From Macrolepiota albuminosa (lineage: Eukaryota > Basidiomycota > Agaricomycetes > Agaricales > Agaricaceae): a stretch of 64,000 bases of DNA. This document shows positions 5,301 to 64,000 of the stretch, in pieces (the first letter of the stretch is position 1; each line of letters opens with the position of its first letter). The position numbers and the translations under genes were made by a program. The DNA lies in the NCBI GenBank assembly GCA_027475525.1, contig JAMWFC010000049.1, positions 497,297 to 561,296 of the forward strand. Direction: 5' to 3'. The notes beneath the pieces were generated by a model. It saw only the letters and a list, made by a program, of their open reading frames with translations. It had not been told where the DNA came from and made no database searches.

Positions 5301-7214
5301 ATTAAAGAGCGATGCATAGATACGACAGAGGTATTCTGACTATTGAAAAAACAATTAGCCAGGTAAAAGCATATCCGAGATAAAAAATTTACGTCTTGGA
5401 CCGGCCAATTCTCTACTTCCGTCTCATGCATTATTTTCATGACATTTGAAAGCGCTTCGGGTACACATTCAAGTGGTACGTCGTTTCGTTCGTAAAACTC
5501 TTTCACTAAGTCCAAGAAACAAGTGACTCGGTAAGAGTGGCCTATTCGCCATCGTAATGCACATTCGTTGATGAGCTCAAGATGTGGGGTAGATAAGATC
5601 CCAAGAGAGACTTCGTCGTTGTCATCTACTTCAGGGCTCATCATAACCTCTAGGTCTGCCACAAGACAGTATTCAAGTAGTCGCCGATAGTATTTACGAG
5701 GATTGGGGGGTATGAATGTGAAGTGATGGCCGACGGGAAGCTCTTCTTCATCGTCACCATCTGCTTGGTCAACGTGTAGAGACCTTCGGCTGGAAATTGA
5801 TGCATGGCGGGTGGCCGTGCCTCCAGGAGAGTCTACAATATATAGTGATTCCCGTCGCGGATTTGACGTTTGATAAGATAACGTTACTTCTGACGTTGTC
5901 GATTTGGCCAGCTCTGGATTGAATTGAACCATGATAACCATTAGTTGTTGTAGATGTGTGGTTTCAAGTGTTTTCCAGTGATTCCACGCGGCCTCACTAT
6001 CGAAGTCTTCTCGTCGTCCGGGAAATGGTGCACCAGCGTTTATATTTTTCAAGCACGTCTGTTGGGGTTGAATCAGATGTGCGATACACCAAGATATAAT
6101 CATCTTACCTTAAGATCGTTCATAGCTGCCTGAGCACACGATCCAGGGTGAGTTACCGTGCATGATGATAATCGATGCAAAAAAATCTCACCTTTTCCGT
6201 GACGACTTGCCCCAGCCTTTGATCAATTTCTTTTTGTACGACAGGCTCAGACAACTTAAATAGGCTAGCAACAGTTCGCACTAGTGACATATCCGCAATG
6301 TTTGAGCTCATAACACCAACACTGGAGTCACGATCGCGCGAAGGAGAAGCAGAGTCGTAACCTGAATCGCTGTAAGTTTGCGTGGGCGGAGCTAGTTTTG
6401 CAGTGTATGTATCGAGGCGAGAAAGAAGCTCCGGAGATACATGATTAACATTCCGTAGACATTCCCGGAGCATCTTCACAAACTGTGCAATGTGATTGTT
6501 GAGCTCAACCTTCCAGCCGTCTCCACTGAGAGAAGGCTCCTTTTTGAGGACCGCTGTAGCATGAGTAGCAAACAACAAGATTAGCTCCTCGATCTTCCTG
6601 TTCTCTTTCATTTGACGTTTAAAACTGTCGTTCATGAATTGATTATAGAATTTAGCCATCGTCCTTCGTAGCAGTTGATCCGAGTAGCTTTTGACGTGTA
6701 AGTCCCAAGTTCACGTATATTGGAGACACAATCGCGCACCCGGGGTCCTTCCCCATCGAGATATTCTGCAGCTTGAGTTCTAGGACTTTTAGCAACTTTT
6801 CCGGAAACTTGACACTCTTTGACCCATCTCTAACATCTCTAAATATCTCACCGATTGAGAAATTTGATAGAGCTGAAAGTCGAGAGGAATGTTCCCGGTC
6901 CCGGATCTCTGTCGTGGAAATCTTCGGCGTCGTATCGACTGCCTTGGGAAGCAGGAGGTAGCCCAGGATACTGGTCAGTATATGAGAAGGATAACGCATC
7001 GTAGATAGGCATAGCACTCACGCTACGCGAAGAACATATCTGCGATGAAGTGAGAAGAGAGAGGCCGACAACGGCAGAGGTGATGTACGCACTCTAATAG
7101 ATCCTCCTCAGTGACCCGATGCTTTGAGACTCGCTTCTCTTGAGAGTAGCTGTCATAGCTTCGGCTTGACATGAACCAAGATTGCTTTAATGTAAGGAGG
7201 GAATGGCCTAACAA
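2308..7214 (-). CDS. MUN/C2 domain protein, fungal Munc13 (UNC-13) relative
   Basis: This many-exon gene encodes a MUN-domain protein (DUF810 type) of the class that includes S. pombe Ync13/Git1, thought to prime or organise secretory-vesicle fusion at the cell tip. Exons with consistent phase are 2308-2470, 2527-2715, 2769-2881, 2935-3387, 3426-3721, 3781-4252, 4320-4460, 4522-4539, 4594-4690, 4741-4932, 4984-5339, 5393-6058, 6109-6129, 6192-6687 and 6740 to about 7000, plus an N-terminal exon near 7023-7214. Order: helical MUN region containing …GFFEPYVRQWL…, then a C2 domain (…KIVIAEGLVPLD…, …DPDGNRLAKT…, …LNPRW…, …LWLMVSVRDRALVGKHD…) and a C-terminal MHD2-like helical domain, ending in a basic tail. 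The C2 calcium loops retain several Asp residues. The exact start is uncertain; an alternative ATG lies at 7172. Confidence 0.82.
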
Positions 7215-8703
7215 CAGGAAGCGTTGGGATGAGACGTATGGTTCAGGAGAAATTCCCTTGTCACGCCCATCGACAGTGAATCATCAAAAGTAAACAAGCT
7301 TCTTGGCGTTCACTACCATGATCATTTCAACCACCGACCACGGGAGGTCGAAGTAAACCCCGCGTACATAGAAAAGGAGTAATGAGGAAGACCGACATAC
7401 TCCCCTCCACTAGATCCGTAGAGACAGGTAACCAACCCACAGCCCACTATGATAATAAACACGACGTGCACCAGCCCCTACAAAAAGAGCCATATGACTA
7501 GTCGAGGAAAACCTTGTATCGCCGCATGCTACATAGACGCGACACGGTACATACGACATACCCAATACCGCGCGTAGAATACAAATATTCTCTACTCCCC
7601 GCTTCTTAGCTGGCTTGTGATATAAAACGGGATCATCATTCATTCATAATGATTTCGTTTAACCTCTGCTGTCCAGTGCTAGCTAGTTCGCGTATTTCTG
7701 CTATATTTACTCTTATCAAGTGCTCGCGAACAAGTTCCAACGTTCACATCTCACCCGAGTTTACTATCTTGGGAAGTCACTATACTCCGAGACTTTTCGC
7801 CATTCCTTCAAACGACGCCATAATCAAGTTGCTCGGTGTTCATGTCAAACAGCCGCCTCAACTTGTTTATACCCCCGAGTTGACTTTTTACTTCCGTTTA
7901 TCTGCTTTTCACACTCTGATTTATTCGCTCGCCTGCCGAAGAATATCTCGGAGGTCACCGGTCACCGCTCGTGTTGGTGTTCTATTCAGTTCATCAGTCC
8001 ATATCTATGAAAAAAGGTCTGCTATTATGCAGTACAGGCGCTCCGCGACGGCTTTTCTTAGGCTACTATAGAATTGGCAAGTTCAAGACAGATTAGTCTG
8101 TCAGACCCTAGTAGCCTAAAATATCCGGAGAACTTTCCAGGTTGCCAACATTATAGTCTGCATTCTGGTTCGTGAAGCGTAAACGATTAATCAATATATC
8201 TATGCGTTTCATCGCGAACATTGACTGCATGATCCATCTTGCTCTTAAGTATGTATTCACTATTCTGGGAATCTGGAAAGCTACGAAGAACAATACTAGA
8301 TAACGATCTCATCGGAGCTTGAACAAAAGATGAGGATTAACATCAGTAAAGTTAGAAAAAGGTTACGTCTACTCATGCCAAAAACTTTCACTCGCGAACT
8401 TACTACACCGTCATGTTGAACAAGTCACTTTTCCCAATGCAAGTGACATGACATAGGGTTGACTGAAGTGCGTCCAATCGCAAATGCAGTTGTCAGACAT
8501 TCACAGCGTGTGTAACATATGATGTGAACTAAGCAAGTGAAGGAGAAAGAACTTGTTGATGCTCTTTCTGTAGGAAGGGTTGTGGGGCAGTTTAAGAAAA
8601 GAAATTCAATCAATTGTTTGTCAAGGGACGTGTTCAGGGAACAACATTGTTTCTGGATGGAGATGATTCACCTGTTATTATCAGTTTCCTGAGCTGGTGA
8701 AGG
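7215..8703 (+). other. Gene-poor stretch
   Basis: No exon chain with plausible protein composition was found on either strand. A 140-codon open frame at 7649-8071 (+) has no domain, unusual composition and no splice support, so I do not call it. The stretch presumably holds the promoter of the MUN gene and ordinary spacer. Confidence 0.4.
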
Positions 8704-9255
8704 TCAACACAAGATGGCCGTACAATCCAAGGATATCCATGGGGCTAATTCACAGCTTGTTTTAGATGAGTTGGGGCCTAAAGTAAGGAACCTGGGAGTG
8801 GAAACATGACATTGAGGCAGGGGTGGTGCCAGTACAAAAGGAGAAAAGTGATGAAGCAGTGGTAAATGATTTGGCACAACAGCAGGCTGAGGCAGGACAG
8901 GCGCCATATTAATTGTAAGATGCTGATACACATCATCTGCCTGAGCAGCGACAAACTGCTGATGATGTAACATGGGAAAAGTTATATTCTCAAGTGGTCC
9001 AGGAGCTCCAATTATTGAACCTACCTGAGGTATGAATGGCTGATCACATATCAGATCAATAGGGAGAACGAGTTGTGAAGCCAACACCAACAGAGGAGCT
9101 GCTTGTTGCAAGATACCAGGGATAGGTTGATTGTTCATCAATACAGGATAGCAGGGCCACTCACTAGTCTTGGATTCTGTGATGTCACTGACAAGACAAT
9201 GTCTTTTTATGCGGTGAAGGTGGTAGATACACATCAAGTTCATTCTCCTTGACAT
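8704..9255 (-). CDS. Hypothetical ORF rich in Pro, Leu, His and Gln
   Basis: An uninterrupted frame of 183 codons encodes a hydrophobic, Pro/Gln/His-rich protein (segments such as …PGILQQAAPLLVLASQLVLPIDL…, abridged here, and …LLHHFSPFVLAPPLP…). I recognise no domain. A second open frame on the same strand at 9279-9494 might be an upstream exon. The lack of family resemblance, paralogues or clear splice signals makes a chance ORF or a decayed mobile-element gene equally possible. Confidence 0.22.
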   Translation of the reverse strand: MSRRMNLMCIYHLHRIKRHCLVSDITESKTSEWPCYPVLMNNQPIPGILQQAAPLLVLASQLVLPIDLICDQPFIPQVGSIIGAPGPLENITFPMLHHQQFVAAQADDVYQHLTINMAPVLPQPAVVPNHLPLLHHFSPFVLAPPLPQCHVSTPRFLTLGPNSSKTSCELAPWISLDCTAILC

Positions 9256-47432: not shown

Positions 47433-47730
47433 TTTGTAATTTCTTATATAAGATGTGGTTTGTATCCTCTTTATTTACCAATTGTATGAGCTTCATTTAT
47501 TTCTTGTACATTTTTCTGACAAGTTTGAGCTATATACAACATTGGTGATGATTTTAGTCTGCATTTCATCTAGTTCATTTTTATCAGATTATGTATGATG
47601 TTTTCATTAATTATATCGGATACAAAGGACATTTGGTAAACGGTAATGACAGTAAAAATGATTTTGAACTGAATTGCGCCACTGATTTTTCCCTTGCAGT
47701 GTCTTTGTAGCTTCCCAACGTAAGCATACA

Positions 47731-48255
47731 CTAGATGCAGGGAACGATGTTTTTTTTCAGCAAAATAATGTAAAAATATGGTAAAAATAATCCAAATAGT
47801 TTTAAAATTTTATTTGAATGTTTCTGTCAAAAACGTTGAAAAAAATATTGTAATTGAACTTAAAATAGAATTTCAATGGTATTTGTAATAGAATTTGAAT
47901 AGAAATAAAGAAAAAAAATTATAATATTTATCAATTATTCTAAACAATGTCTTTATAATATTTTGGGCCAGAAAGTTGAAAGAATGTTTTAGCACTGGAT
48001 GCAGAGAATGATGTTTTTTTTAGTAAACAATGTAAAAACATGTAAAAATAATCCAAATAATTTTAAATCTTTATTTCAATGTTTCTGTCAAAACCATCAA
48101 AAAATATTGTAATTGAACTTAAAATGATATTTCAATGGTATTTGTAATAGAATTTAAATAGAAATAAAGAAAAAAAATTATAGTATTTATCAACTATTTT
48201 CAACAATGTCTTTATGATATTTTAGACAGAGAAGTTGAAAGAATATTTTAATGTC
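47731..48255 (+). repeat. Diverged 264-bp tandem repeat, two copies
   Basis: The block beginning ATGCAGGGAACGATG at 47735 recurs at 47999 as ATGCAGAGAATGATG, a spacing of 264 bp. The copies share successive AT-rich segments (TGTTTCTGTCAAAA, GAACTTAAAAT, TTTCAATGGTATTTGTAATA) with scattered substitutions and small indels. It is non-coding. Confidence 0.8.
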
Positions 48256-48446
48256 AGGAGTAATACTTCTATAAGGAAAAAAAGAAAAAAGTATTGAATC
48301 AGATCTACAAATATTTCTTGAATTTCTTTGAAATTATTTTTTAATATGCTTTTTTATTGTCATTGTCAAAAACAATGTAATAACAATCAGGGCCAATGGT
48401 TTAATTGTTTTTGGTGTCTTTTTACAATGTTCTGCCATGTAACAAT

Positions 48447-48982
48447 CACTGCTGGCAGCGGAAGCTAAGTTATAACATATATCTAATAGCAATATGTGAG
48501 AAGAGAATTGACTCAATCAGAGAGCCCCTGAGAGAGTTGATTTGAGAGTCACTAGTGACTCAATGGCAACACAAGTAGAGAGACAATGTTTCCATGACAT
48601 TTTATCTTTGAAAAATGAAATGTATTTTTTTTCTCATATATTGCCCTAAGAAAAAGAATAAAAGTATCTAAAAGAAAAATTCAAAGAAAGAGATTAAATT
48701 CTTCCAAGCCTAGTTCTATAAAAAATATAATTTCTATATCTTTGAGCAACATAGAAAGAACAATTATAAACATTTCCAGTATGTTTACACTGGCAAAAAT
48801 ATGGTAAAAATATGAATATGTGATATTATAATAGAAAACAGTCAGAAAATAGGTGAAGTTTTTCTCAACTTTTATACTAAGAAAATGCTTATGTATTTCT
48901 CAAGGGAACATGTCATAGAAGTTGCATAACATGTTTTTTTTTAAAAATTTTCCAAAGGAAACAGCTTCTGCTGCCAGCAGTG
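48447..48982. mobile_element. 536-bp CACTG-terminated element
   Basis: The left end CACTGCTGGCAGCGGAAGC and right end …GCTTCTGCTGCCAGCAGTG form terminal inverted repeats that match the termini of the 203-bp element at 47230. Flanking trinucleotides are AAT on both sides. The interior is AT-rich and non-coding. It is likely a longer non-autonomous member of the same CACTA-like family. Confidence 0.6.
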
Positions 48983-49818
48983 AATCAGAAAGTATTGTGA
49001 TTAATCTGTCACAATTTTCTTTGAATATTTTAATGCAAAAAATTTAGAAAGAAATTAAATGTAATAATACATTACTTTGTTTTGAAACATGCAAAAATAA
49101 ATCAAATAATCTGGACCATGTGCTTTAAAATATATAAAAGGAAAAGAAGTGTACCATGAAGATTTCTCCATTTTATAAGATAGAAATTTGGACATGTTTT
49201 GACAAACAAAGCATTAGTCTATAACAACCATAAAACTGCATATGTAACAAAATCAGCGAATAGCGACAATCCAAGCTTATTATACATACTCAAACTGCAG
49301 TTAAAGCTGCAAATACCATCAAAATAACTTACTAAGTAGTAGATCAGGTCTAAACAATATTTGGCTCCCCATTTTCTTCTCTATCTCATTTAGCCTTTTC
49401 TATATGCACATTCTCATGATTGATAGCATGAATGCTTGTTAGATGCAATAGAATCTTCTTGCTGTTTATAAGCTCTTGCTTTTCATCAAAACTCTCCAGC
49501 TCAGCCACTTCTCCACCACCATTACTATTTTATTTACAGGTCAATGGGAAGCAGGAATAAAAGATATTTCAAGATTTTATTCTGATTGTTTTGATAAATC
49601 TAATTTTCTGAGAGGAAAATAGTCAGGCATACTAAAAACACTCCATCAAAAGTCTGTTAAGAGTCATGTGTAATTAATAGTAATATATTGACTCTGAGTT
49701 GTCACATCTTGGTATTTACAGATCTATTATTTATCTGTTTCACCATCTTCTAAATTATTTTAAAATCTTTGCTATTTCAGCATCTTATTCTGCTCCTGTT
49801 TGAGTATCTATATAACAA

Positions 49819-49923: not shown

Positions 49924-49944
49924 GCTCCAAGTATGTATAGAGAA

Positions 49945-49996
49945 CTCAGTGCTTAATCCCAGCCTCAACCTCACTTCGTTCGGTTAAGGCCTCGGT
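49945..49996 (+). repeat. 60-bp satellite, left remnant beside the retrotransposon
   Basis: The sequence from about 49945 (AACTCAGTGCTTAATCCCAG…) to the retrotransposon edge is a near-complete copy of the 60-bp satellite unit found after 62815. The element therefore inserted into the satellite array; the last five bases, TCGGT, are the target site. Confidence 0.85.
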
Positions 49997-50939
49997 GATG
50001 ACGCCCAAAGTTTGGTCAGCAACAAATGTAACAATTGTGTTACCGTACCAAGAGTGTGCGTTGGGCACGCTATAAGTGATTTGAGGAGTCCTGGGCAGGT
50101 CCCAGAGAACACGTCTGTGAAAAAGGAGAAAAGTCGGTAATGGAGTCGGCAAGTGTAAAGCGCTAAGGTAAAGCGCCTAGGAAAGAGCAGTAAGCGAACA
50201 CAGCAAAGGTAAGCGGCAAGAGCACGATAAGCTTAGCGAAGTCTAAGCGTCGATAATGCCTGCCGTAGTTGCAAGGCGCGAGTATGTCGAGTATTGGCGA
50301 ACGTCTGCAACTGCCGATGAGTTTGACGTTGCTGATCGTAGCGTAAATGAGCTCTTGAGCGTAAGGGAGACTGAGGAAAGGGGAGTAGTAAACTCTGGTC
50401 TATTGTTCTCTGATGATCATTGTACAAGTCGGTAAGTACTTTTATACTACAAAGAGTTCGCCGTCGCCAGTGGTCAAAGAGCGGTAAACTAGAAAATTTC
50501 ATAGGGGTAGCTCCAACAGTTTCAGATCCCTGCCGTCCATTCAAGACCCTTAGCGCCACCAGGCGGCAGATCGCGGTGCTAAACCATCAGTCCATCACCC
50601 TTCTGTCTGTCCAAAAAGCTAAACGATGCCAGGTGCCAAATCGAAGCGCTAAGCGGTGTCGGACGCCAAGGTCAAACGCCAAGCTGTCCGTCAGTTTTTG
50701 ATAGATGATCAGGCTTCTTGCTAAGCGCTGTCGTCAGTGACTGATGCCATCTGTCAGTTGTCATTCTTGCTGCCGTCGGCGCTATCATTGATCGGATCTG
50801 CTTCTTGCCATGTCCGGCCATCGGGAATGGCTTAAAATAGGTAGAACGCGTGCGCTAAGTTTGGAACGAGTGCGGCAAGGTTTCCGGAGCCGGTGCCGAG
50901 CCTGCCGTTGATGCGCCTAACCTGTATAGGGTCCTATCA
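49997..50939 (-). repeat. 3' LTR of the Gypsy element
   Basis: 943 bp, equal in length to the LTR at 61867-62809. In element orientation it starts TGATAGGACCC and ends …GGCGTCATC. About a dozen substitutions separate the two LTRs, all CpG transitions. CGGYAA-type hexamers occur about seven times on both strands. Confidence 0.93.
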
Positions 50940-50950
50940 TCTCCCCCCAA
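50940..50950 (-). other. Polypurine tract
   Basis: In element orientation TTGGGGGGAGA lies directly before the 3' LTR. Its position and purine content fit the plus-strand primer site. Confidence 0.8.
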
Positions 50951-51108
50951 CTGAAAAATTGACTGTCCTCAGTCACCAAATAAGGCTACCGTTACCGCTT
51001 TTGTGACCAGTGGTCCGTGCGTTCTTGAGATTTGGTTTATAGTCCTGGCGCATGAGTGTGGACTTCGTTTCTTCTCCCCATTTTTACCTGGCGCTCAATA
51101 ATATTAAA

Positions 51109-53504
51109 ATGTCTTTCCGCATTCCAACTCCGCCCCCCGTTCCCTCTCGCGAGGCTCAAGACGCTGCCTCTTCCTATATCGCCAAGGCCAACAACTTTAT
51201 CAAGCGCATCGAGGGTGTGGGCGCGGAGGCGCCTTCAAACTTGGTGATCGCGGTAATGAAGTTGTTGGAGCGCTGGTACGAAGTTCGTGTCCTTGGCGTA
51301 GGCTGGGACAAGGAGATCGAAGTGCGGGAGTGGTGCCGAGCGCGGTACGTTGATAATCTGGGGTCTGAGTGGCTGGGTCCCTTCTCTCGCTTTGTAAGTT
51401 TTTATGATTGCTTGCCGCGTCGCTAGCTAACTGATTCCCTAGGCGCCTCCTCCCGTTCCAACCATTGAGGACGAACTGGAGGACATCCTCTCTGGCGCCT
51501 TGCCAATGACGGTAAGCGCGCCAGCGCCTGAGTGAGTATCTCTAACTGTAATTTCTAACTTAGCTGTGGTCTGATCTATCTCCTCACAGCAAGCAAGAGG
51601 TGTTGGCGCCTCTCGCCAACCTGCAGGTCGATGCAGAGATGGCGGCAATTCGCGAGAGTGTGCTGGAAGAGGCCTCCCGTGACGCCAAGGAGAGGACCAA
51701 GGCGTTGGAGGAGCGAGAGGTCGTTGGCGAGTCTCTGGTTGTCAGCGAGAGGTCGCCAATTGCCAGGAGGCAGGTGTCTGGTGGAAAGGATTCCCGCGCC
51801 GGTAGTGCCCAAAGCCCAGCACTGCCGGCAAGCAAATCGGGCTCTCCGGTCAAGCCTGGCAAGACATTGAAAAAGAAGGTAAGTTCGTGCGTTGTTACCG
51901 CTGGCGCCTATCGCTTATCCCATTCTAAGTCTCGCAAGGCTGCTGCCCCTCGTTACACGGTAAGCTCGTTACGCCAAGGTACTTCTTCTGCTAACTAACT
52001 GGTTGGCAGGCGCCAACGCAAACCTCCTTTAGCAATGCAGAGCTGAAGGGTTTGTTGGTGGCACGACGAGATGAGGCGGTTTTGGACGAAGGAATGGAGG
52101 CGGGAGTGGTCTTGCCGGAGATGAAGGACAAGAAGATGGCAAGCCCAGCGGTACGACGAGAGTTCAAGGATTCTCAAGGAGCGGTAAGTACTTTGACTTT
52201 CCTTACCGCTCATGCTAACAGTCTTATAGTGCGACAAGTGCTGGGCCGACAACGACCCAGAGGGGTGTTGGTACCCCACTGGTGGCCAGCCCTGCTACCG
52301 ATGCGGTACGCTGAAGAGGGCGTGCACTCTGGACAGCACTAAGAGTTGTGAACGCGGTGGAGCTCCCGACACGGTAGTGGAGCGCACTTTCAAGCGTGCC
52401 ATACTCGTCAGGAGGGCGCGGGAGTTCGTCGAAGAGGAGAGGAAGAAGCAGGCCGCTGGCGATGTGGCCGCTATTAGCAAGAGTTCCCTGGCGCTGCCAA
52501 CGCGTCAAGGGGACGAAAACAAAACTGTTGGCAACCGTGGCGCCGGCGAGCGCCAAGGGACCACGGTCCCTTCAAAACGACAAGTCTCCTCGCCCGCCAA
52601 AGGGAAGGGCAAGGCTAAGCAGGCACGGGTAGAGTCTCCTCCCTCTGCCCCCGAAGACGTAGAGATGGAGGAGTTGGAGAAGGCGCTTGCCGCCAGTCGC
52701 TTACCGCCAAGGGATACTGAAGCCGGGCCCAGCAAGTTGCTTTCCCCCATTCACTTGAGAGGGGCTTCTCTGCCGGCCGCCGACAAGGACGACGCAGTAA
52801 TGGACCCGCCGCCAAGGGAAGAGCCTCAGGAGGCGGCACTGACGGCAGTGACAACAAGGGGAGAGGGAAGCCCTGTGGCTATGGCTGGTGACGAGGACGC
52901 AGAGGGGGAGCCAGACGAGACCTTGGCGACCCAGCGCAAAGGTGACGAGGAAGAGGCCCCCGCCAAGGAGGCGGTAGCGGGAGAAGGGGAGGGAGCGGCA
53001 GGAGTTGCCAGGGAGGAGCCAGAGTGGCACTGGCTACCTCCCTACGGTAACGTTGCCCCCTGGGACGTCTCTGACCCCGAGGACGTTGCCAGACTGGAGC
53101 CCAGGTGCCCTGTCATCGCCAGGGTTAGTCCTGCCTGGACCCCTCAGCCAGAGCCGACGGTCACTGGCAACGCTTTCCAGTGGCTGGGGCAGGATCTCGT
53201 TTACCCGGTCATAGCGCTAAATCCTCGCGAGATGCTGGAGCGGTATTCGAGGCGAGCGGCAACGATGGAGGCCACAATGAGTCGGGAGCGGGAACGAGTC
53301 CGAGGGCAGCTAATGGCGCTAAGGCTGCGCTACTCCAACCTTGGTCGCAGCCTTCGCGTTCTCCGCGACTACCAGGACGACTGCCAAGCCGCCATGGATT
53401 GGCAGACCGCCAATAATATCTTGCCGGGCGACCTCCTACCTCTGCGCGACTCTTCTTTGCCGGTATCGGATAGTTCCCTGCCGTTGGACGACGATAGCAA
53501 TTGA
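51109..53504 (+). CDS. Accessory gene of the retrotransposon, Zn2Cys6-like cysteine cluster protein
   Basis: Six exons on the strand opposite to gag-pol: 51109-51393, 51443-51531, 51590-51878, 51930-51959, 52010-52183, 52230-53504. All joins keep frame, donors are GTAAGT/GTAAGC/GTGAGT, and no stop interrupts the roughly 713-codon product. The N-terminal part (MSFRIPTPPPVPSREAQDAA…, …FIKRIEGVGAEAPSNLVIAV…) is helical and conserved-looking. Exon 6 begins with a cluster C-X2-C-X8-C-X8-C-X2-C-X6-C (CDKC … CYRCGTLKRAC), close to the fungal binuclear zinc pattern. A long Ala/Glu/Pro-rich disordered region follows, then a C-terminal helix …ATMEATMSRERERVRGQLMA…. It lies tail to tail with pol and must use its own promoter near the 3' LTR. 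DNA binding is inferred from the cluster alone. Confidence 0.82.
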
Positions 53505-53927
53505 GCGGACCTTAGCGTAGACAGGCCGCTTGTGTAAATATTTTATTTTCGTTACCGCCGTTTATATACTTTTTGCCGTTTCGTTTTGAAGTGAAAGAGG
53601 ATAAGTCCCATAATCTAAGTTAGCACCACAGCACAGAGTCAAGAAAGCACAGAGAGAGCAAGCGGCAAGTATTCTAAAGTAGGTTTTAGCAAGAGGAGTT
53701 GTAGGTGAGGGACTTAGACAAAATTTGAGGAAAAAGGGAACACTCAGTAAATCATCATGGCGAAAAACCCTTGGCAAGAGTTGCGCAGAGCGCTAAGCGT
53801 TGGCGACCCGCTAGCGCTGCGACTTGACTATGTAAGAAAATGTCTGTGGATATAGTACAGTAAGTATCGGCAAGAAGGATAAGTAAGGTAAGTAATAGAA
53901 AGAAAGAGCTTATCAATATAGTCTTTT
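53505..53927. other. Spacer between accessory gene and pol
   Basis: Non-coding 423 bp between two converging stop codons. It contains TTACCG, TTGCCG and two CGGCAA motifs, a density well above chance. Confidence 0.7.
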
Positions 53928-56900
53928 CTAATCATTTTCTTCTTCTTCCACTAGAGTCGGCAAGTCATCATCGTCTAGTAATTCGGTTTCTTCAAGTTCT
54001 CTCAGCTTGGCGGTGTCGATATCTAGCGCTTCAAGCGGCAAGTCAATGTGTTCTCTGGCGAGATACGGCAATAGGCGAAAGGCGGCAACAGGTCGATGCA
54101 GTACTGAACCATCTAATTCACAGAGCACGTAAGCGCCTCCACGGTTACGAGAGATAACTACCAAAGGTCCCAAATAGCGCGGGCGCATTTTCTTATTGTA
54201 TGATGTTTCAATTTTTGAGTTGCGCATAATCACTAGCGCTCCTCTCGGGAAGTTGTAATCTTTGATGGTAGCGCTGATAACGCCAACTGTGGTTGGGTGC
54301 GCTGGACGTATATGCAGTACAACGCCGTCTCCAGCGCTTGGCGTACGTAGTTGTGAGGAGTCCTGACAGGGTCCCGGTGTGCTCGAGTGGAGGTAGTAAA
54401 ACGATGCGCTAGATTGTAGCGCTTCGGGGGCTACCTGGCAGACGGTTAGTGTCGTGGTTTAGGCAAAGATATTGGAGAAAAGACGAGTAGCGCAGCGTAT
54501 TGTGCCCGTAAGTGGCACCGTAAACGATGAAGACGAGATAGACGGAGCTAGCGCCCGACTTAGTGACGAAGTCGGAGGAGGCTAGCGCGAGTTGAACGCT
54601 AAGTGTAACTGTGTGTTCGAGGGGTTACGATTCGTTGTTATATACATGAAAAGTAGCTATTTTATATACAGTGCGCTACCATGTTTGCCAAGATACAAGT
54701 CCATCTGCGGCGCCTCTCCTCGTGGTTTACTCTAACGGCGACCTGTCAACGGCGACCTTGTGCACATGGCTGACGGCGACCAACGGCGTTATGACCCACG
54801 GCGACCTGCGGTGACTCTATATTGACTTAGAGTTGTACGAGTCTGTTCACTTTTCTATAACTCCGATTGGCCAGGCCGTTCCGGGGTATGGTCGGAAAAT
54901 CCTCGACAGACGCCGTGAGCGCTAATGTCAGCGCTACTCATTGTATTAGTTCCTGTCCGGTCCAGATGTCGGATTTAAGTATATCCAGTGCCGCCGTCAT
55001 TGATCCCTTTAGACTTCTGATTGAAGTGCCTCGTCCAATGGCGGCGCCTGCTGCTGGCTCCTTCTGGAAGTGATCGGGGTTTAGTTATAGTCCTCTCCCG
55101 CCGTTGTGTTAGCGCTATACGTTATGAGCCTCCTTCGTCCTTGGGCTAGGTGAAAGGAGTGCGCTGTAGGCCTGGTAGCTAGGGGTTAGGATAAGTTTCC
55201 ACATCCTGTAGTAATTTGCCAGAGCTAGAGCTGCTCTATATTCCCAACTGGTCGCTAGAGTCCTGAATACGTCAAGTGTCGGTTGGCCTATAATGTCCCT
55301 TGATGCGCTCAGTCCGAGTAGAAGCCTATCAGCGCTATGCTCGGTCTCGAATCGTAGGGCTGCTTGGCGACGTGCGCTAAAGACTACCTCGTGGAGTCGC
55401 TCTAAATCTTCTTTCCTTCGCTGGAGATCAATAGCTCGTCTGGCGATAAGGTCGGTAGTCGCTAAGATACTGTTGGGGGCTGGCTGAAGGTAGGTCGCTT
55501 CTATAATGTCGGCAGGGAGTAACGGATGGGTGCCAGTAGCCGGATACTGTTGGGGGCTGGCTGAAGGTAGGTCGCTTCTATAATGTCGGCAGGGAGTAAC
55601 GGATGGGTGCCAGTAGCCGCATAATAGGGAGAACAACCCATGCGCTTACGAATGGTAACTCTTTCCCAGGGAGTAACGGATGGGTGCCAGTAGCCGCATA
55701 ATAGGGAGAACAACCCATGCGCTTACGAATGGTAACTCTTTCCGACCAAAACACTGAATACGTTGCCTCACTCCAACGAGACTCGTCGCCATCGACCGCC
55801 TTGAAGAGCGCTTGCCGAACGTCAAAGTGTGGTCTCTCTACCAGGCCATTGGCGCGCTTGTTGTAGCCAGATACTCGAATGTGATGGATATTGTATTTCT
55901 TGGCGAGGTAAGTTAGCGCTTTGATAATGGGCGCACCGTTATCCGTGACGATTTCTCTTAGCGCTCTCCAACGGCAGATGACGTCTTCAAATAGCCACTT
56001 GGCGACCGCCTCGGTATTTTCTCTTTGGAGCATTCGAAATTCAGGCCAGTGGATTAGCGAGCAACGACCTTGAATGATGTACTTGTAGCGACCAGATTTG
56101 GGCATGTGCATGGTATTGACGTAGATTTTGCTGAAGAGGGGAGCTGGCGTTGCAACGGTTGGCGGGATGAGCACTTGGGCATGTGCATGGTATTGACGTA
56201 GATTTTGCTGAAGAGGGGAGCTGGCGTTGCAACGGTTGGCGGGATGAGCACTTGGCGCGTTTGCTGAATTTGGCAGAGGTGGCAAGTCCTGATGTACCAG
56301 GCGATGTCGGCACTAGCGTGTGGCCACCAGAATCGTTCTAACAGAGAAGCTCGGGTAGCGTACAGACCTCTATGTCCTAGCTCGTCATGCATGGCGCGCA
56401 AGACTCGTAAGCGACTTTCTGGCTTGATGATCAGCTTGTGAGCGCCATCTCGATGTCGTCGCCAAAGTCGGTTGTCGGTAAAGAAGAAGCGGGTAGCATA
56501 GCGGATAAATTTCGCGTATTGTTCGTCGGTAAGGTCTGGGGGTCGCTTAAGGTCTCGTATCCATTGTTCAACTTTTAGCAAGCGACTGTCTTCCGCCATT
56601 GCCTTGGCGGATCGGGGAACGGCATCGTAGGTCAGGTTTTTGCTGTCTTTTCTTAGCGGATGGGGTTCCTGTACGACTTTTACTGGAGGCGAGTTTTGAC
56701 TGAAAATGCTTGCCGTATAGAACGTGAGGGGTGCGCTAAAGGTTTCAGGGCGGTAAGGGACAATGGGATGTAGAAGGATACTAGTAGGCTGTTGCCGTCG
56801 TAGTAGGGAGATTGGCTGTTGTATAAGGTGCATGAAACCATGTAATCGGTCGATCCAGTCCTCGAAATCGCTATCAGCTTGTGGGTCCACTGCCAGGTCG

Positions 56901-59123
56901 CCAGGCTGCCGTGGTCGCCTAGAGAGTCCATCTGGTCCGTGGAAAGAGCTCTTGACATGAACCAGTTCAAAGTGAAACATGAGGATGGCGACTACCCACT
57001 GGTTCATGCTAGCGGATGGCTGGATGTCGGGATTCTGCAGCATGCCTTTGATGTACCTAGCGTCGACTTCCACAATCAGGTTCCGCACGCCAATCAAATA
57101 CATCTTTAGCGACCGGAAGGCTTTGAAGAGTCCATAGAGCTCTAGCTTAGGCTGACTGTAGCGAGATTCCCGGTCGTTTAGCGTGATAGACCCAAAGCGG
57201 TTGTAGCTCCATAGAGCTCTAGCTTAGGCTGACTGTAGCGAGATTCCCGGTCGTTTAGCGTGATAGACCCAAAGCGGTTGTAGCGTCGCTGTTTCCGATT
57301 GTCGCTAAGGCATTGGCACAAGAAGTAGCGTTTAGCGTGATAGACCCAAAGCGGTTGTAGCGTCGCTGTTTCCGATTGTCGCTAAGGCATTGGCACAAGA
57401 AGTAGCCAATGGCAATGTACGAGGTATCCACCGCCAAGATAACAGGGTCGGCAGAGCTATAGTCGATAGGAACTAGGGGTTTGGCATCTTGTAGAGCTTT
57501 TATTAAGTCTCGTTGTGCAGTGACCTGGTCTGGCCCAAATTCAAAGGGCTTGTTGGCGCGGGTGAGTCGGTTAAGAGCATGTGCGCGATGGGCAAAGTTT
57601 TTGACGAATATCCTGAGAACACCAACGGTACCGAGAAAGGCGCGAACTTCAGATAAGTTGCGGCAAGGACCCCATCGCTCCAGGAGTGCTAAGCGAGACT
57701 CGTCGGGAACACGACCGTCAGGAGTGCAGATGTGACCGAGTATTTTGAACCTTGGCGCGCATAAGAGGAGTTTGTGGCCGCTAAAGGTACCACCGCTATA
57801 CTTCATACGTTGGAGAACTCGATTGAGCAGCTGGAAAAACTCCCATAGTGCTAAGCGAATGTTGGAGTTGTCGGGATGGGTCGCCGGTAAGTTGTTTACG
57901 AGTCGCCAGTCTTTGGGACCTTTGACGCCAACGTCATCAATGAAGCTAAGGACATGGTGTGGTATCTCGGGTTGGAGGATGAAAGTAATGTCGTCATGGA
58001 ATATGGGGACTGAGTTTGTCCAGCCCATTGGCAAGGTAACTAGGCGCAAGGCGCCAAACGGAGTTTGGAAAGTAGTGAGGTTGCGGGAGGAAGGGTGTAT
58101 TAAGCGTTCATCGTAGCCAACGTAGAGATCAAGGGTGGCGCCACAAATGCGCCCGGCAAAGGACTCGGCAAAGTGGTCAGGGAAAGGCGGTACGCCAGAG
58201 TGTCGTATAGTAACTCTATTCAGCGGCTCAAGACTGTGGACTATGCGTAGATTGCCGTTCTTTTTGAGGACGCAGAACCAACGGGAGCGGTAAGAACTAT
58301 TGGAGGGCTCGTAGACGCCAGCCTTGATCTTGGTCCTAATGATTTGGCAGACCTCGGCTTCAATCCCAGGCGGTAACGGTCGGTTGTGCTCAGTCCACGG
58401 CACGTGGGGAATGGTCGGGATTACGACAGGCGGGAAGAAGTCCGTATGTAAGCTGCCGCGTTCTGAGTCCTCCCAAGCAAAGGCTTTGTCTTGCTTAGCG
58501 ATAAGATCAGTAAGGACGTTCAACTCATCTTTGGTCAAAAATCCTGTGTCGTGCTCCTTGGCGAACTGCTGTTGGCGTTCCTTGGTAAAACGTCCTGTGG
58601 GCTGAAAGGGTGGCGGATTCGGTGATAAGGCCGGCATGTCGGCAAGAGGGTCGCCAATGATCTGGCGCTCGATTCTAAAGGTCTCGGGAGAGTGCGTAGC
58701 GATGGGTTTTGTTTTAAGCACAACTGGCTTATATTTCTTTTTAACTTGTACCCCTTTCCTTTTGGGAGCGTTAGCTTGGTTATACACAGATGTGGAAAGG
58801 GGAACTGTAGCCTGAGGGGTGGCAAGTCCAAGAACGGCAGGAGACGAGGCTCCAGGAAGGGTAGTGAGATACATATCGGTAGACGCAATATTTTGAAATG
58901 ATTCAGAAGCGGTAAGGTACAAGTAGGCAAGAGAGGAGTCGGTAATGTTTTGATTTTTCTGGGAAAGCTCTGCGTCGGTAGTGGGTAAAGTAGTTAAAAC
59001 ATCTTGGTCAAGAAAAGCAGTAGACATAACAGTTACAAGACCAGTTGAATGGTCATATTCCAGCGTTAGCGCTACATCTCCGTGATCGTCGCCAATCACC
59101 TCCTCGATGGTCTGTGAAAACAC
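53928..59123 (-). CDS. pol: Pol polyprotein: reverse transcriptase, RNase H, integrase (interrupted)
   Basis: From 59123 the frame gives RT (…GVYEPSNSSYRSRWFCVLKK…, …ATLDLYVGYDERLIH…, …LRLVTLPMGWTNSVPIFHDD…, catalytic box FIDDVGVKGP), RNase H (…VILAVDTSYIAIGYFLCQ…, later …LYGL/…), a H2C2 zinc motif (H…H…CHLCQ), the integrase core and a C-terminal …MRPRYLGPLVVISRN… segment ending at 53928. Five 77-bp duplications and a solo LTR (1,056 bp plus 5-bp TSD) break it. Frame arithmetic shows that all pieces fall in one frame once these are discounted, giving about 1,249 residues. The first catalytic Asp of integrase reads Asn (AAT at 56115-56117, VNTMHM); the second Asp (IVTDNGAP) and the Glu (NGLVERPH) are kept. 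The RT box FIDD differs from the usual YXDD. Confidence 0.85.
54271..54275. repeat. Target site duplication of solo LTR, left (GCGCT)
   Basis: GCGCT at 54271-54275 is matched by GCGCT at 55332-55336, immediately outside the solo LTR. Confidence 0.9.
54276..55331 (-). mobile_element. Solo LTR nested in pol
   Basis: The 1,056-bp insert begins GATAACGCCAACTGTGG, matching in plan the GATGACGCCCAAAGTTTGG edge of the host LTR, and ends CCTATCA as the host LTR does. It also shares a GAGGAGTCCTG segment near 54355. Perfect GCGCT duplications flank it. Pol reads …ETEHSA|TIKDYNF… in frame across the site without it. It is therefore a solo LTR from a related, different Gypsy family, inserted in the same orientation and reduced by LTR-LTR recombination. 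It has its own repeated motifs, ACGGCGACC (about 54735-54815) and TAGCGC/GCGCTA. Confidence 0.88.
54735..54815 (+). repeat. Interspersed ACGGCGACC microrepeats in solo LTR
   Basis: CGGCGACC occurs four times, with two partial versions, within 80 bp at irregular spacing. Such clusters in LTRs can be factor-binding sites, but none is known for this one. Confidence 0.7.
55466..55743. repeat. Two overlapping 77-bp tandem duplications in pol
   Basis: First pair 55466-55542 / 55543-55619; second pair 55590-55666 / 55667-55743. The second begins inside the first, as expected for a very short contig (about 124 bp) with a 77-base overlap at both ends. Confidence 0.95.
56098..56251. repeat. 77-bp exact tandem duplication in pol (integrase)
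   Basis: Copies 56098-56174 and 56175-56251 are identical. They span the segment with the altered first catalytic residue of integrase. Confidence 0.95.
57131..57405. repeat. Two overlapping 77-bp tandem duplications in pol (RNase H)
   Basis: First pair 57131-57207 / 57208-57284; second pair 57252-57328 / 57329-57405. Again a short intermediate contig is implied. Confidence 0.95.
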
Positions 59124-59185
59124 CGGTGGGGAGGCTCGTTGGCGTGTTGGTCGGTAAACTCCGGGGGCTTAGCGCGGGCGCCTTT

Positions 59186-61408
59186 TCATTGTCCCCTGGG
59201 GAACGTTGGCACCGTTCGTCGGATTCCGGAATTGGGGTCGCTAATTGTGAGGGTCGTTTCCTCGTTGGTAACTGTCTTGACGACAGATCGCACCAAGACG
59301 TTGAAGGGTCTGCCAAGTAGCAAGTCGTATGCTGGGGAACGTAAGATGTGTATCTGAAGATAAAACGTAATGTCGCCAAGGGTGCACGGCACATTCTTGG
59401 CAAGTCCTAGGGATCTGTCTACCGTGCCGTTAGCACTCTGCATATTTAGTATAACGGTAGAGTCGTAAATAAGGCCCAGATCGTTAGCGACTTCAGCTGC
59501 CATAGAAATAATCTGAGACCCGCTATCCACAATTGCCTCTACCTCGTGCTTATTGTCTACGGTTAGCGCAACTGAGCGGATAGCGTGTGATTCTTGAGCG
59601 ACGGTAAGAATTGCGGGGTCTTCTCCATGGTCTACTGACCTAAGATAGGTCTCGACCGGGTCCACAGAGGTGGCGTTAGCGATGGAGTCGGCAAGAGGTT
59701 CATCGGTGTCCAGAGAGTCGACGGTAACAGAAAAACCAGGTAGGGCATTGTCGAGGTCCTCAACCTCGGCAACGGTTGTCGCCAAGGGACGTCGAGGGGT
59801 AACTGCCGTCTTGACCTGGTTGCGGACGTCGGGAGCAATACTACAAAGTTCTTCTACTGACAAGGTGACGGCGGTCTTCATAATGCGGCTAAATACGTGG
59901 TTTGATTTTTCGATGTCGAAAATTGGCGCAGTAGGTCGGTAGCCACCCTCAGGACGTTTCTCGGGAGCGGCAAAATTTTGTTGCGTGGGAGCATGATAAC
60001 GGTCGGGAATCCCTGAATAGGAATGAAGGGGCGGCAAAGGCGGTTCGGGAGCGGTAGCGGACGACGATGGTTCTGGGTTAGTGGCTGGCGGAGCGGCAGG
60101 AGGTGCGGCAGGAGCAGGTGTCGGTAATTTGCTAGCGGGAGGCATCGGCTTGTATCCTTTGAGAGGTTGTTTGGGCTGCTTAACTTCAACCCCATCAAAA
60201 ACCTGGTTCTTCAGCGAATCCAACTCCTGTTGCAGCTTGGCGATACGCTCTTCCCGCGAGAAAGTAGGGCGGTCGCCAATGCTGTCGAAATGTAGGACCT
60301 CGTGAACCATTTGCTGTTGCGTTGCCTGTTCAGGGTCGGGGTTGGCGTTGCCGGAAAGCGTGCCGGTAACGATCTGTCCTGGGTTGCGCCTATGCCACTC
60401 ATCAACTCGCTCCTGGAAGGACTTCTTGTCTGGGTAGTTGGGAATGATGGCGCCAGTGGTGAGGACTATTTTGCCGTCGATAGCCCGTCGAATCCTTCCT
60501 TGCCGAATGTAGTTTTCTAGGGTAACGCAGCGTTCTCTAGTCATAGTGTGGCCAATTTCCCCACAGAAGTGGCAAGGGCCAGGTGCGGGTACGTTAGCGG
60601 GTCGGTTAGCAGTGAGGTTGGTGGTGATCATGGTTTCAATACGCGTCATAGCGGAAGCGACAGCGGCGGTAATAGCAGCATTGAGCTCCTCTTTCTTAAC
60701 GAAGTCGGCAACAGGAGGCGGGATGGGAATTATACCGTTAGTTCGCTCAGGTGGTGGGCTCGTCCTAGCGCGCTGTAGTCCAACGCCAGTGTCCGTTCCC
60801 TTGAGAACCCATTTACCGGCTTCAAAGACGTCGGCAACGTTATAGGGCTCGTCTGGGTGATGAGCCTGATGAACTATCTCTAGGCGACGAGCTATGCGAG
60901 TCCAAAGCGAAGTCGGGATGCCTTGTTGGAAGAGGCGACGTTCCTCGTTAATGTATAGCTTGCCGTTCTGTACTAACCACCTAGCGATCTTCTGGAACTC
61001 GCGGTAATACGTGGAGAATGCGCCAAGAGAGGAGGTGCCACTGTCGAATGATTCCTGTACTAGTTTCTGGAGCTCGTTTACCGAGTATCGGGTAGCCTCT
61101 TCTGCGCCAGGGTACAACTGGATCACTGCCGTCTTCCAGTCCTCATACGAAGCGCCTTGGGCTGGAACTGGCGGTGTGGCAGGGACAAAGGCGGCAAACT
61201 CGGTCAAACCAGTTCACGTCTCTGCCGTGTCATATGATACGTATCTTGCCGCGTACTCCTTCATCTGCCTGTGGTCGGTAATGTTACAATCCCTGAATAA
61301 ATACTCCAATTCCTTAAAATACTGGGATAGCTCCCGTGGCTTGGACTCGTCCCATTTCGGTGCCGAGAAGTGGTTGTGTGGCGGCATGCGCTGGACTTGT
61401 TGTTCCAT
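59186..61408 (-). CDS. gag: Gag-protease polyprotein with one in-frame stop
   Basis: The ATG at 61406-61408 opens MEQQVQRMPPHNHFSAPKWD, continuing …LSQYFKELEYLFRDC…. A TGA at 61214-61216 interrupts the same frame, which continues with …LTEFAAFVPATPPVPAQG…. The capsid-like helical part (…FQKIARWLVQNGKLYINEER…) is followed by a zinc knuckle of the C-X2-C-X4-H type (CHFCGEIGHTMTRERC), Pro-rich linkers, and a retroviral-type aspartic protease with the active site EAIVDSGSQIISM and the flap/hydrophobic region …YDLLLGRPFNVLV…. It ends at TGA 59186-59188. RT lies in another frame about 20 bases further on. The premature stop is compatible with CGA to TGA, a CpG transition. Confidence 0.85.
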
Positions 61409-61733
61409 AGCGACTGTGTTGGCGAGTTCGGTTAGCGGTAGTGGGGAAGGGGTTCTAGGGATTGGCGACGGGGTAAGAGAGACGAGTTGTGAAAGAGGCG
61501 TTAGCGGAGTAATTGGGGTGATTGGTTGCGGTACGGTAAATGGCGACGCTAAGGGGTCGTCGGCGCTATAATTGAGGGAATGCGGGAAGAGATCAGGAAA
61601 TGCGTCTACAGTGGCGTTCTGTAGTTCCTGGGCAAGAGAGAGACCCGGTAAGGCACCAGGTGGTTGTGGGGTTGATGGGTGGGAAGGAGCTATGCCTTCT
61701 GCCGACTGGTCTAGCAGGCGGCGCCTACGCTGG

Positions 61734-61887
61734 AGACGGGTTTCTGGCAGAATTCTGCCCTAGAGATCCCTCGCGGTGGGCTCCAATTTGATGACGCCCA
61801 AAGTTTGGTCAGACGGGTTTCTGGCAGAATTCTGCCCTAGAGATCCCTCGCGGTGGGCTCCAATTTGATGACGCCCAAAGTTTGGTC
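61734..61887. repeat. 77-bp exact tandem duplication at PBS/5' LTR edge
   Basis: Copies 61734-61810 and 61811-61887 are identical. The duplicated unit contains the PBS and the first bases of the LTR, so a truncated second LTR edge (TGATGACGCCCAAAGTTTGG) appears at about 61789. Confidence 0.95.
61845..61862 (-). other. Primer binding site
   Basis: In element orientation TGGAGCCCACCGCGAGGG begins four bases after the 5' LTR. The leading TGG pairs with a tRNA CCA end. The implied tRNA 3' end (CCCTCGCGGTGGGCTCCA) contains a plausible T-arm/acceptor sequence. I could not assign the tRNA species. Confidence 0.75.
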
Positions 61888-62809
61888 AGCAACAAATGTA
61901 ACAATTGTGTTACCGTACCAAGAGTGTGCGTTGGGCACGCTATAAGTGATTTGAGGAGTCCCGGGCAGGTCCCAGAGAACACGTCTGTGAAAAAGGAGAA
62001 AAGTCGGTAACGGAGTCGGCAAGTGTAAAGCGCTAAGGTAAAGCGCCTAGGAAAGAGTGGTAAGCGAACACGGCAAAGGTAAGCGGCAAGAGCACGATAA
62101 GCTTAGCGAAGTCTAAGCGTCGATAATGCCTGCCGTAGTTGCAAGGCACGAGTATGTCGAGTATTGGCGAATGTCTGCAACTGCCGATGAGTTTGACGTT
62201 GCTGATCGTAGCGTAAATGAGCTCTTGAGCGTAAGGGAGACTGAGGAAAGGGGAGTAGTAAACTCTGGTCTATTGTTCTCTGATGATCATTGTACAAGTC
62301 GGTAAGTACTTTTATACTACAAAGAGTTCGCCGTCGCCAGTGGTCAAAGAGCGGTAAACTAGAAAATTTCATAGGGGTAGCTCCAACAGTTTCAGATCCC
62401 TGCCGTCCATTCAAGACCCTTAGCGCCACCAGGCGGCAGATCGCGGTGCTAAACCATCAGTCCATCACCCTTCTGTCTGTCCAAAAAGCTAAACGATGCC
62501 AGGTGCCAAATCGAAGCGCTAAGCGGTGTCGGACGCCAAGGTCAAACGCCAAGCTGTCCGTCAGTTTTTGATAGATGATCAGGCTTCTTGCTAAGCGCTG
62601 TCGTCAGTGACTGATGCCATCTGTCAGTTGTCATTCTTGCTGCCGTCGGCGCTATCATTGATCGGATCTGCTTCTTGCCGTGTCCGGCCGTCGGGAATGG
62701 CTTAAAATAGGTAGAACGCGTGCGCTAAGTTCGGAACGAGTGCAGCAAGGTTTCCGGAGCCGGTGCTGAGCCTGCCGTTGATGCGCCTAACCTGTATAGG
62801 GTCCTATCA
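61867..62809 (-). repeat. 5' LTR of the Gypsy element
   Basis: 943 bp, same length and ends as 49997-50939. In element orientation this copy drives gag-pol. It keeps some CGGCAA motifs that the left copy has lost by CpG transition (for example CACGGCAAAGG versus CACAGCAAAGG). Confidence 0.93.
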
Positions 62810-62814
62810 TTGGT
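62810..62814. repeat. Right target site duplication (TTGGT)
   Basis: TTGGT matches TCGGT at 49992-49996 except for a CpG to TpG change. All satellite units carry CTCGGTAATC here, which supports TCGGT as the original target. Confidence 0.85.
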
Positions 62815-64000
62815 AATCGCAACTCAATGCTTAATCCCAGCCTCAACCTCACTTCGTTCGGTTAAGGCCTCGGTAATCGCAACTCAATGCTTAATCCCAG
62901 CCTCAACCTCACTTCGTTCGGTTAAGGCCTCGGTAATCGCAACTCAATGCTTAATCCCAGCCTCAACCTCACTTCGTTCGGTTAAGGCCTCGGTAATCGC
63001 AACTCAATGCTTAATCCCAGCCTCAACCTCACTTCGTTCGGTTAAGGCCTCGGTAATCGCAACTCAATGCTTAATCCCAGCCTCAACCTCACTTCGTTCG
63101 GTTAAGGCCTCGGTAATCGCAACTCAATGCTTAATCCCAGCCTCAACCTCACTTCGTTCGGTTAAGGCCTCGGTAATCGCAACTCAATGCTTAATCCCAG
63201 CCTCAACCTCACTTCGTTCGGTTAAGGCCTCGGTAATCGCAACTCAATGCTTAATCCCAGCCTCAACCTCACTTCGTTCGGTTAAGGCCTCGGTAATCGC
63301 AACTCAATGCTTAATCCCAGCCTCAACCTCACTTCGTTCGGTTAAGGCCTCGGTAATCGCAACTCAATGCTTAATCCCAGCCTCAACCTCACTTCGTTCG
63401 GTTAAGGCCTCGGTAATCGCAACTCAATGCTTAATCCCAGCCTCAACCTCACTTCGTTCGGTTAAGGCCTCGGTAATCGCAACTCAATGCTTAATCCCAG
63501 CCTCAACCTCACTTCGTTCGGTTAAGGCCTCGGTAATCGCAACTCAATGCTTAATCCCAGCCTCAACCTCACTTCGTTCGGTTAAGGCCTCGGTAATCGC
63601 AACTCAATGCTTAATCCCAGCCTCAACCTCACTTCGTTCGGTTAAGGCCTCGGTAATCGCAACTCAATGCTTAATCCCAGCCTCAACCTCACTTCGTTCG
63701 GTTAAGGCCTCGGTAATCGCAACTCAATGCTTAATCCCAGCCTCAACCTCACTTCGTTCGGTTAAGGCCTCGGTAATCGCAACTCAATGCTTAATCCCAG
63801 CCTCAACCTCACTTCGTTCGGTTAAGGCCTCGGTAATCGCAACTCAATGCTTAATCCCAGCCTCAACCTCACTTCGTTCGGTTAAGGCCTCGGTAATCGC
63901 AACTCAATGCTTAATCCCAGCCTCAACCTCACTTCGTTCGGTTAAGGCCTCGGTAATCGCAACTCAATGCTTAATCCCAGCCTCAACCTCACTTCGTTCG
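62815..64000 (+). repeat. 60-bp satellite array, about 20 copies to window end
   Basis: The unit (AATCGCAACTCAATGCTTAA … CACTTCGTTCGGTTAAGGCC …) repeats with a period of exactly 60 bp and no visible variation up to the window edge. Each unit contains the inverted repeat CCTCAACC / GGTTAAGG around a TCACTTCGTTC loop. It is non-coding. The array continues beyond the window, so its size is unknown. Confidence 0.97.

Follow-up and report, generated by a model that had tools for sequence, protein, structure and literature searches.

The window analysed here is a 64-kb stretch of the Macrolepiota albuminosa genome (100.1 Mb in 129 contigs) and contains, at 49996-62809, a Ty3/Gypsy long terminal repeat (LTR) retrotransposon. 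The hexamers CGCTAA, CGGTAA, CGGCAA and CGCCAA, together CGSYAA, are dispersed over the whole element on both strands, at about one per 72 bp by motif counts. Between pol and one LTR the element also carries an accessory gene for a protein with a cysteine cluster. The evidence below indicates that CGSYAA is very probably a selected motif, putatively bound by a protein on double-stranded DNA. The analysis covers one genome and two lineages of the element; few elements were read at length, mostly as 10-kb pieces, and the further copies are the best-scored places among the matches listed.

Both LTRs are 944 bp long and assigned, like gag and pol, to the minus strand. The LTR that is 3' in gag-pol orientation (49996-50939) is delimited by TG...CA borders and carries 15 CGSYAA sites, and the 5' LTR (61866-62809), placed by borders and counts, carries 16. 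Reading of the borders also gives a target-site duplication, TCGG on the left (49992-49995) and TTGG on the right (62810-62813), with one C>T difference. Open reading frames (ORFs) and Pfam matches place gag with an aspartyl protease at 59186-61759 (minus strand), with one in-frame stop near 61214, and pol, encoding reverse transcriptase (RT), RNase H and integrase, at 53928-59168 (minus strand), its frame broken in the window copy. The Pfam order on the minus strand is protease, RVT_1, RT_RNaseH and Integrase_H2C2, the RVT_1 match being a weak one (E 0.00055; score 20.1 bits, cut-off 29.6). The accessory gene, which has introns, lies between pol and the 3' LTR in antisense orientation to gag-pol (51109-53504, plus strand); its start and exon borders, taken from ORFs alone, are approximate. 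ORFs and alignment locate the cysteine cluster, CX2CX8CX8CX2CX6C, at 52230-52325 (plus strand), at the start of the last long exon (52230-53504). A spacer (53505-53927) separates this gene from pol.

A sequence-only reading of the element had reported a recurrent CGGYAA. Against dinucleotide-preserving shuffles this enrichment is real: 80 sites occur in 49996-62700 where the shuffles average 13.3 (none of 200 reaches 80), and the host flank (1-47500) holds 32 against 33.0 (50 shuffles). The counts given in that reading for the left LTR (7 in 49996-50880), the spacer (4) and the accessory gene (16 in 51041-53504) were reproduced, as was a chance expectation of about one per kb for the four words examined; pol contains 21 sites, and the density in gag, put at more than 10 per kb, is slightly lower (23 sites, 8.9 per kb). 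However, CGGYAA is only half of the full word: the four most enriched hexamers together spell CGSYAA. One LTR plus the internal region (11,870 bp) contains 161 CGSYAA sites against 26.1 (standard deviation (sd) 4.7; 200 shuffles, maximum 39), whereas the host flank is at chance (70 against 69.2; 60 shuffles). The excess extends to every part of the element: LTR (15 observed, 2.1 in shuffles), accessory region (35, 5.5), spacer (7, 0.9), pol (64, 11.8) and gag (40, 5.5).

In a scan of about 1 million degenerate hexamers CGSYAA ranks first at 18.4 standard units, while the best degenerate hexamer in 25 shuffled elements reaches at most 4.3. It is likewise the top word in each of four copies (161 against 26.2 in the window, 158 against 23.2 in L039, 165 against 24.2 in L040 and 161 against 23.1 in L041). 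CGSYAG is also enriched, more weakly (76 sites), and there is a weak flanking preference for G or T before the motif and G after it. Gaps between sites are irregular (mean 72.5 bp, sd 65.3 bp). Paired half-sites were rejected, as motif pairs show no strong fixed spacing or orientation; among gapped trinucleotide pairs, the top ones in the lineage of the window copy mostly spell CGSYAA itself, and GCTN7AGC in a second lineage, described below, is weak.

The sequence-only reading held that codon bias alone is insufficient, and synonymous shuffles that fix both protein and codon usage bear this out, with 118 CGSYAA sites observed against 29.6 (sd 4.7; maximum 47 in 1000). This total comes from eight ORF pieces. 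A few sites in it are counted twice, because two pieces share 256 bp and because the pieces include 77-bp duplications (four motif sites in six duplicated units). Seven of the eight pieces were never matched in 1000 shuffles, and accessory exon 1 was matched in five. The intact 1264-amino-acid pol ORFs of L039 and L040 give 62 against 11.0 and 62 against 11.7 (300 synonymous shuffles each). Coding sites occupy all three frames. The two strands share the sites 33/30 in pol, 22/18 in gag, 11/4 in the LTR and 22/13 in the accessory region; the near equality in pol and gag speaks against an RNA motif.

The 77-bp units are exact tandem duplications found at 13 places in the window (24690, 25957, 27368, 28164, 29608, 30793, 34638, 55466, 55590, 56098, 57131, 57252 and 61734) and also in 17 fetched loci of at least 3 kb, one of which (L002) overlaps the window. 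That the period never varies suggests an artefact of assembly. The breaks in the window pol frame lie at least partly at or near such duplications, and other copies have pol ORFs of 1264 amino acids.

Comparison between copies, which the sequence-only reading had proposed, shows that the sites are conserved. Among 30 accessory loci (L009-L038) the pattern is kept in 73.6% of comparisons for CGSYAA and 70.5% for CGSYAG, against 40.5% for the decayed form TGSYAA (21 per copy) and 39-68% for sixteen letter permutations of CGSYAA; these pairwise counts are not independent. Across eight LTRs, 922 of 1082 comparisons retain the motif, the fraction being 0.76-0.79 in broad CpG classes and 0.42-0.59 in three small classes.

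Fourfold degenerate sites give a sharper comparison. In gag and pol of four copies (the window, L039, L040 and L041, hereafter lineage 1), differences number 49/1335 within the motif, 687/5018 in other CpG hexamers and 686/3999 elsewhere (ordered, non-independent pairs). Counted as variable columns against L039, the figures are 10/136, 117/510 and 102/380, respectively (Fisher p 1.7e-5 for the motif against other CpG hexamers). CpG transitions account for six of the ten variable motif columns. Three others leave the motif intact, one through C/G at position 3 and two through C/T at position 4, and the last has A/G at position 5. By pair counts, change is below that in control CpG hexamers at five of the six motif positions, including the non-CpG positions 4, 5 and 6 (10/210, 6/326 and 0/60 against 186/1237, 138/1280 and 151/882; ordered pairs). 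All eight changes at position 3 are C<->G (10/66 in controls) and all ten at position 4 are C<->T (95/131 in controls), but such motif-preserving changes were dropped as proof of selection, since they amount to just one distinct column at position 3 and two at position 4. In accessory exons, 16.8% of fourfold sites differ within the motif against 31.1% and 33.7% in the comparison classes; these codon tests used 23 of the 30 loci, the other seven having no long ORF that matches the cluster pattern.

The accessory segments of L039, L040 and L041 are 60%, 69% and 62% identical to that of the window. Their CGSYAA densities are nevertheless similar (14.4 per kb in the window; 12.2, 15.9 and 13.3 in L039, L040 and L041; 0/200 shuffles each), while only 4, 9 and 6 of the 27 window sites, respectively, lie at shared positions. 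Since density held while most sites moved, it has apparently been renewed and not merely inherited. Shared descent alone was rejected as an explanation, being hard to square with this turnover at 60-69% identity and with the fourfold-site tests.

A sister lineage (lineage 2: L043, L046 and L047) favours another word. Its pol DNA is 66-70% identical to that of lineage 1 (ORFs compared over at least 480 codons). L042, a fragment with Ns beside a transposon, was left out of the lineage comparisons, and L048-L051 stand outside the motif counts. The best word in L046 and L047 is the palindrome RGCGCY (50 against 11 and 67 against 14), with GCGCTA at 31 against 4.6 and 47 against 6.2; in L043 the best word is GCGCTA (41 against 6.3), with RGCGCY at 47 against 14. 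Under the synonymous null, L047 pol has 46 RGCGCY against 11.7 (strand counts), and fourfold differences within RGCGCY are 7/74 against 292/910 and 211/748 in the comparison classes. Only 3 of 48 CGSYAA sites in L039 pol are kept in aligned L047; the aligned pol of L047 has 11 CGSYAA and 23 RGCGCY, and that of L039 has 8 RGCGCY. Thus, the lineages differ in their leading word, not in presence or absence of a word. In L042, ORFs resembling a KDZ transposase (recognised by eye, no profile) lie in AT-rich DNA at 6120-8555 (reverse complement), beside a lineage-2 accessory gene.

The cysteine cluster also differs between the lineages. It is nearly identical among the four lineage-1 copies (CDKCWADNDPE[GS]CW[YF]PTG[GA]QPCYRCG[TA]LKRAC) and reads C[DN]KCWSEN[DN]PEGCWFPTASLPCYRC[DN]ALK[RQ]GC in L043, L046 and L047. 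The homologues found for the accessory protein, 22 in number, are all Termitomyces proteins, which makes Termitomyces or a near relative the probable host; accessory proteins in other Termitomyces genomes carry different clusters (P0007 type). The 23 aligned sequences have C59, C62, W63, N66, C71 and W72 in common (P0001 numbering). The accessory exon has a median ratio of nonsynonymous to synonymous divergence (dN/dS) of 0.11 (240 pairs with dS above 0.05, 23 exons), so the protein is under purifying selection. Judging from the cysteine pattern, the cluster may bind DNA. Among the six pairs of the window, L039, L040 and L041, accessory exon dS is 1.64-1.79 in three, saturated in two and 0.43 in one, whereas pol dS is 0.18-0.23 among L039-L041 and 0.19-0.22 between the window RT and these copies. 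The accessory module is thus apparently older than its pol neighbours, and such modules may have been exchanged between elements by recombination.

As to the protein family, Pfam gives no match to the window accessory exon at E 0.001 and, at E 10, none to the initial 137 residues of that exon; for P0001 there is a single sub-threshold match, to an unrelated family. A different Gypsy clade (L044 and L045) also encodes an antisense Zn2Cys6-like cluster downstream of pol (7636-8538 and 7884-8861, respectively, both minus strand), spaced CX2CX6CX14-15CX2CX6C in L044, and these two loci alone give sub-threshold Zn_clus matches (E 0.044 and E 0.36). Because L044 and L045 carry such an ORF, four Copia elements (L052-L055) were taken as gene-less controls instead. 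No cysteine cluster was seen in them (ORFs of at least 120 amino acids, four longest per 5.7-kb stretch), and in line with what the sequence-only reading implied for unrelated elements they show neither of the two lineage motifs, with CGSYAA at 0.9-2.6 per kb. Against the synonymous null, the best word scores 2.8-4.0 in Copia and 3.1 and 3.3 in two host ORFs, compared with 9.8 in L040 and 6.8 in L047.

Insertion sites were read from the flanks of L001, L003-L005, L007, L008, L056-L075, L084, L091 and L092, including six further left flanks without a usable right flank. The left flanks end in NCGN in 16 of 20 cases and in NTGN in 4 of 20. The 14 complete target sites are 4-bp duplications, 13 of them exact and that of the window with one difference; 11 are NCGN and two are CGSYAA, the window copy having inserted inside CGGTAA and L003 inside CGGCAA. 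These flanks indicate that the integrase prefers CpG. A 60-bp satellite surrounds the window element (62812-64000 and 49943-49995), each unit of its right-hand array holding one CGGTAA, and this unit also forms arrays on many contigs. Also beside the element, at 47501-49500, lies an AT-rich stretch with a GC content of 0.24-0.29, nearly without CpG from 48001 to 49500.

Several explanations other than recognition by a protein of the element were weighed. That codon usage or a signal at the RNA level (packaging, splicing or export) makes the motif is exceedingly improbable. Some sites do lie in gag and pol, and the strands are less even in the LTR and the accessory region; however, the synonymous shuffles contradict this explanation, the LTR and spacer are enriched as well, the strands are nearly equal in gag and pol, the antisense accessory gene is as dense, and the word of the sister lineage is palindromic. 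Codon bias and an RNA motif were accordingly discarded on the shuffles and the strand balance. A mutational or conversion process without selection, such as lower CpG deamination in this context, a reverse-transcriptase bias or patchy gene conversion, would fit a motif that holds a CpG, a decayed form TGSYAA that is common and poorly conserved, and the preponderance of CpG transitions among the variable fourfold columns. Yet change is reduced at the non-CpG positions 4, 5 and 6 too, the observed/expected ratio of CpG in the element is near 1, and sister lineages in one genome have different leading words, which makes such a process quite improbable.

The insertion data raise two further possibilities. 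The motif could be tied to integration, its copies serving as landing sites for new copies through integrase preference or tethering, as the targeting of CpG and the two insertions within CGGTAA and CGGCAA might suggest. But with CGSYAA at just two of the 14 complete target sites, the dispersed word was rejected as the integration target, CpG being targeted and CGSYAA as such not; moreover, a target role would give the carrier copy no benefit and would leave selection on its sites unexplained, so that a link to integration seems rather improbable. Alternatively, a bound motif might act away from chromatin, protecting reverse-transcribed DNA, for example from self-integration, or marking it for nuclear entry. 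A CpG-dense element would risk self-integration if integration prefers CpG, and the sites span the whole DNA form, but no more than 161 of roughly 821 CpGs lie in CGSYAA, as do the same two of 14 target sites; this role is very improbable. The reader might instead be a DNA-binding protein of the host, namely a transcription factor, an insulator or a chromatin factor; the element would then have accumulated sites for that protein, and the accessory protein would do something else. All the motif evidence would be equally true for such a reader, and the fold of the cysteine cluster is unconfirmed. Against it, different words in one genome would require either a pair of host readers or a single reader of dual preference, and CGSYAA is at chance in the host flank. 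A host reader is therefore regarded as unlikely.

Taken together, the facts call for a reader of double-stranded DNA whose preference is not the same in the two sister lineages, and for a benefit to the carrier copy. The best overall explanation, with a probability of roughly one half, is that the element labels its DNA with CGSYAA at intervals of about 70 bp and that its own protein is the probable reader. By this mechanism the element would write the short double-stranded motif across its DNA, and a sequence-specific DNA-binding protein, likeliest the antisense cysteine-cluster protein, would read it. Dense binding may then keep the copy out of a silent state (CpG methylation or heterochromatin), so that a copy that keeps its sites would be transcribed and leave more offspring. 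That the element encodes the reader is somewhat favoured, on account of the position of the accessory gene, its conservation and the change of its cluster in the single comparison available, between two lineages. Anti-silencing or self-activation as the effect is suggested with some reserve, because in that role each copy gains from its own sites. More tentative still is the full reading of a self-recognition code, with about 160 sites per copy, including synonymous positions, read by the copy's own antisense-encoded protein, in which code and protein would change together and sister lineages would each address themselves.

A number of observations weigh against recognition by the element's own protein or against parts of that account. 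Motif position 3 changes as often as control CpG hexamers (8/72 against 139/1212), and in the LTRs the small control class CGYASA is kept in 56 of 56 comparisons, above the motif itself. GCGCTA exceeds chance in lineage 1 (36 against 7.8 in the window, 12 against 2.2 in L040 pol), partly because of its overlap with CGCTAA. In lineage 2 the density of CGSYAA is still about 4 per kb, the flank having 1.5, and one L043 ORF piece holds 7 against 2.5. The second motif is weaker in L043, where GCGCYA in the accessory exon (5 against 2.5) is not significant. As there are only two lineages, the link between motif and protein comes from a single contrast, which is not clean, and the fact that each lineage has some excess of the other's word slightly lowers the odds of the full self-recognition reading. 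The Zn2Cys6 fold proposed in the sequence-only reading did not find support: Zn_clus is not matched at E 10 in window:52230-52640, P0001, P0007 or L043, and an AlphaFold2 model of P0001 (23 sequences) has a mean predicted local distance difference test (pLDDT) score of 54.6, with residues 55-82 and 84-100, nearly all of the cluster, below 50. The confident part of the model is chiefly a C-terminal helix (residues ~311-373) and does not include the cluster. In L044 and L045, the word bias in pol is weak (5.8 and 4.1) and not conserved at fourfold sites (67/145 against 357/753); a third motif, YCCSGGR in L044, was rejected as it is not conserved against L045. A cysteine-cluster ORF alone thus does not predict a strong motif.

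The first half of a Zn(2)-Cys(6) cluster usually reads CX2CX6. The accessory cluster resembles Zn(2)-Cys(6) transcription factors (PF00172) in its six cysteines and two CX2C halves, and the motif begins with CG; it differs in its spacing, CX2CX8CX8CX2CX6C, and in its unmatched Zn_clus and unconfirmed fold. The parallel with Arabidopsis VANDAL elements and their anti-silencing VANC proteins drawn in the sequence-only reading holds for the logic only, VANC acting in the manner suggested above for the accessory protein. According to the parts of the publications consulted (PMC5735166, PMC10398659), a mobile element there likewise has an accessory gene and a short family-specific motif that is dense in its own copies, related elements have different motifs, and element is set against host; for the present motif, family-specificity is judged from the few other families read. 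The anatomy does not correspond. VANDAL is a DNA transposon and the window element an LTR retrotransposon, and the VANC21 motif, as described in the consulted part of PMC5735166, has nine bases and occurs chiefly in tandem repeats of non-coding DNA and in a single orientation, whereas the window motif has six bases, occurs in coding and non-coding DNA on both strands and is irregularly spaced. Pfam scans showed no sequence relation of the accessory protein to VANC (a direct comparison with VANC was not made).

Position and orientation of the accessory gene are those of the antisense ORFs, located between pol and the 3' LTR, for which the consulted part of PMC7264820 gives no known function. 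Unlike those ORFs, for which no element-wide motif is mentioned there, it encodes a conserved cysteine cluster and is accompanied by a conserved motif. DNA transposons of fungi that carry TET/JBP dioxygenases are thought to counter DNA methylation (PMC12730594, seen in part); they are likewise fungal mobile elements, but their demethylation would be enzymatic, and no TET/JBP domain is among the Pfam matches of six scanned ORF pieces of the window.

Among the matches listed in the open-licence literature, none describes such a motif in an LTR element of a fungus. The presence of sites in coding DNA, kept at synonymous positions, makes element-wide selection directly measurable, and the contrast in leading word between the two sister lineages allows a direct test of binding specificity and its evolution. 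To our knowledge, the only earlier description of sequence-specific self-recognition of this kind concerns a plant DNA transposon. Should the reader prove to be the element's own protein, this would be a sequence-specific self-recognition system in an LTR retrotransposon, and antisense ORFs located between pol and the 3' LTR would thereby acquire a candidate function.

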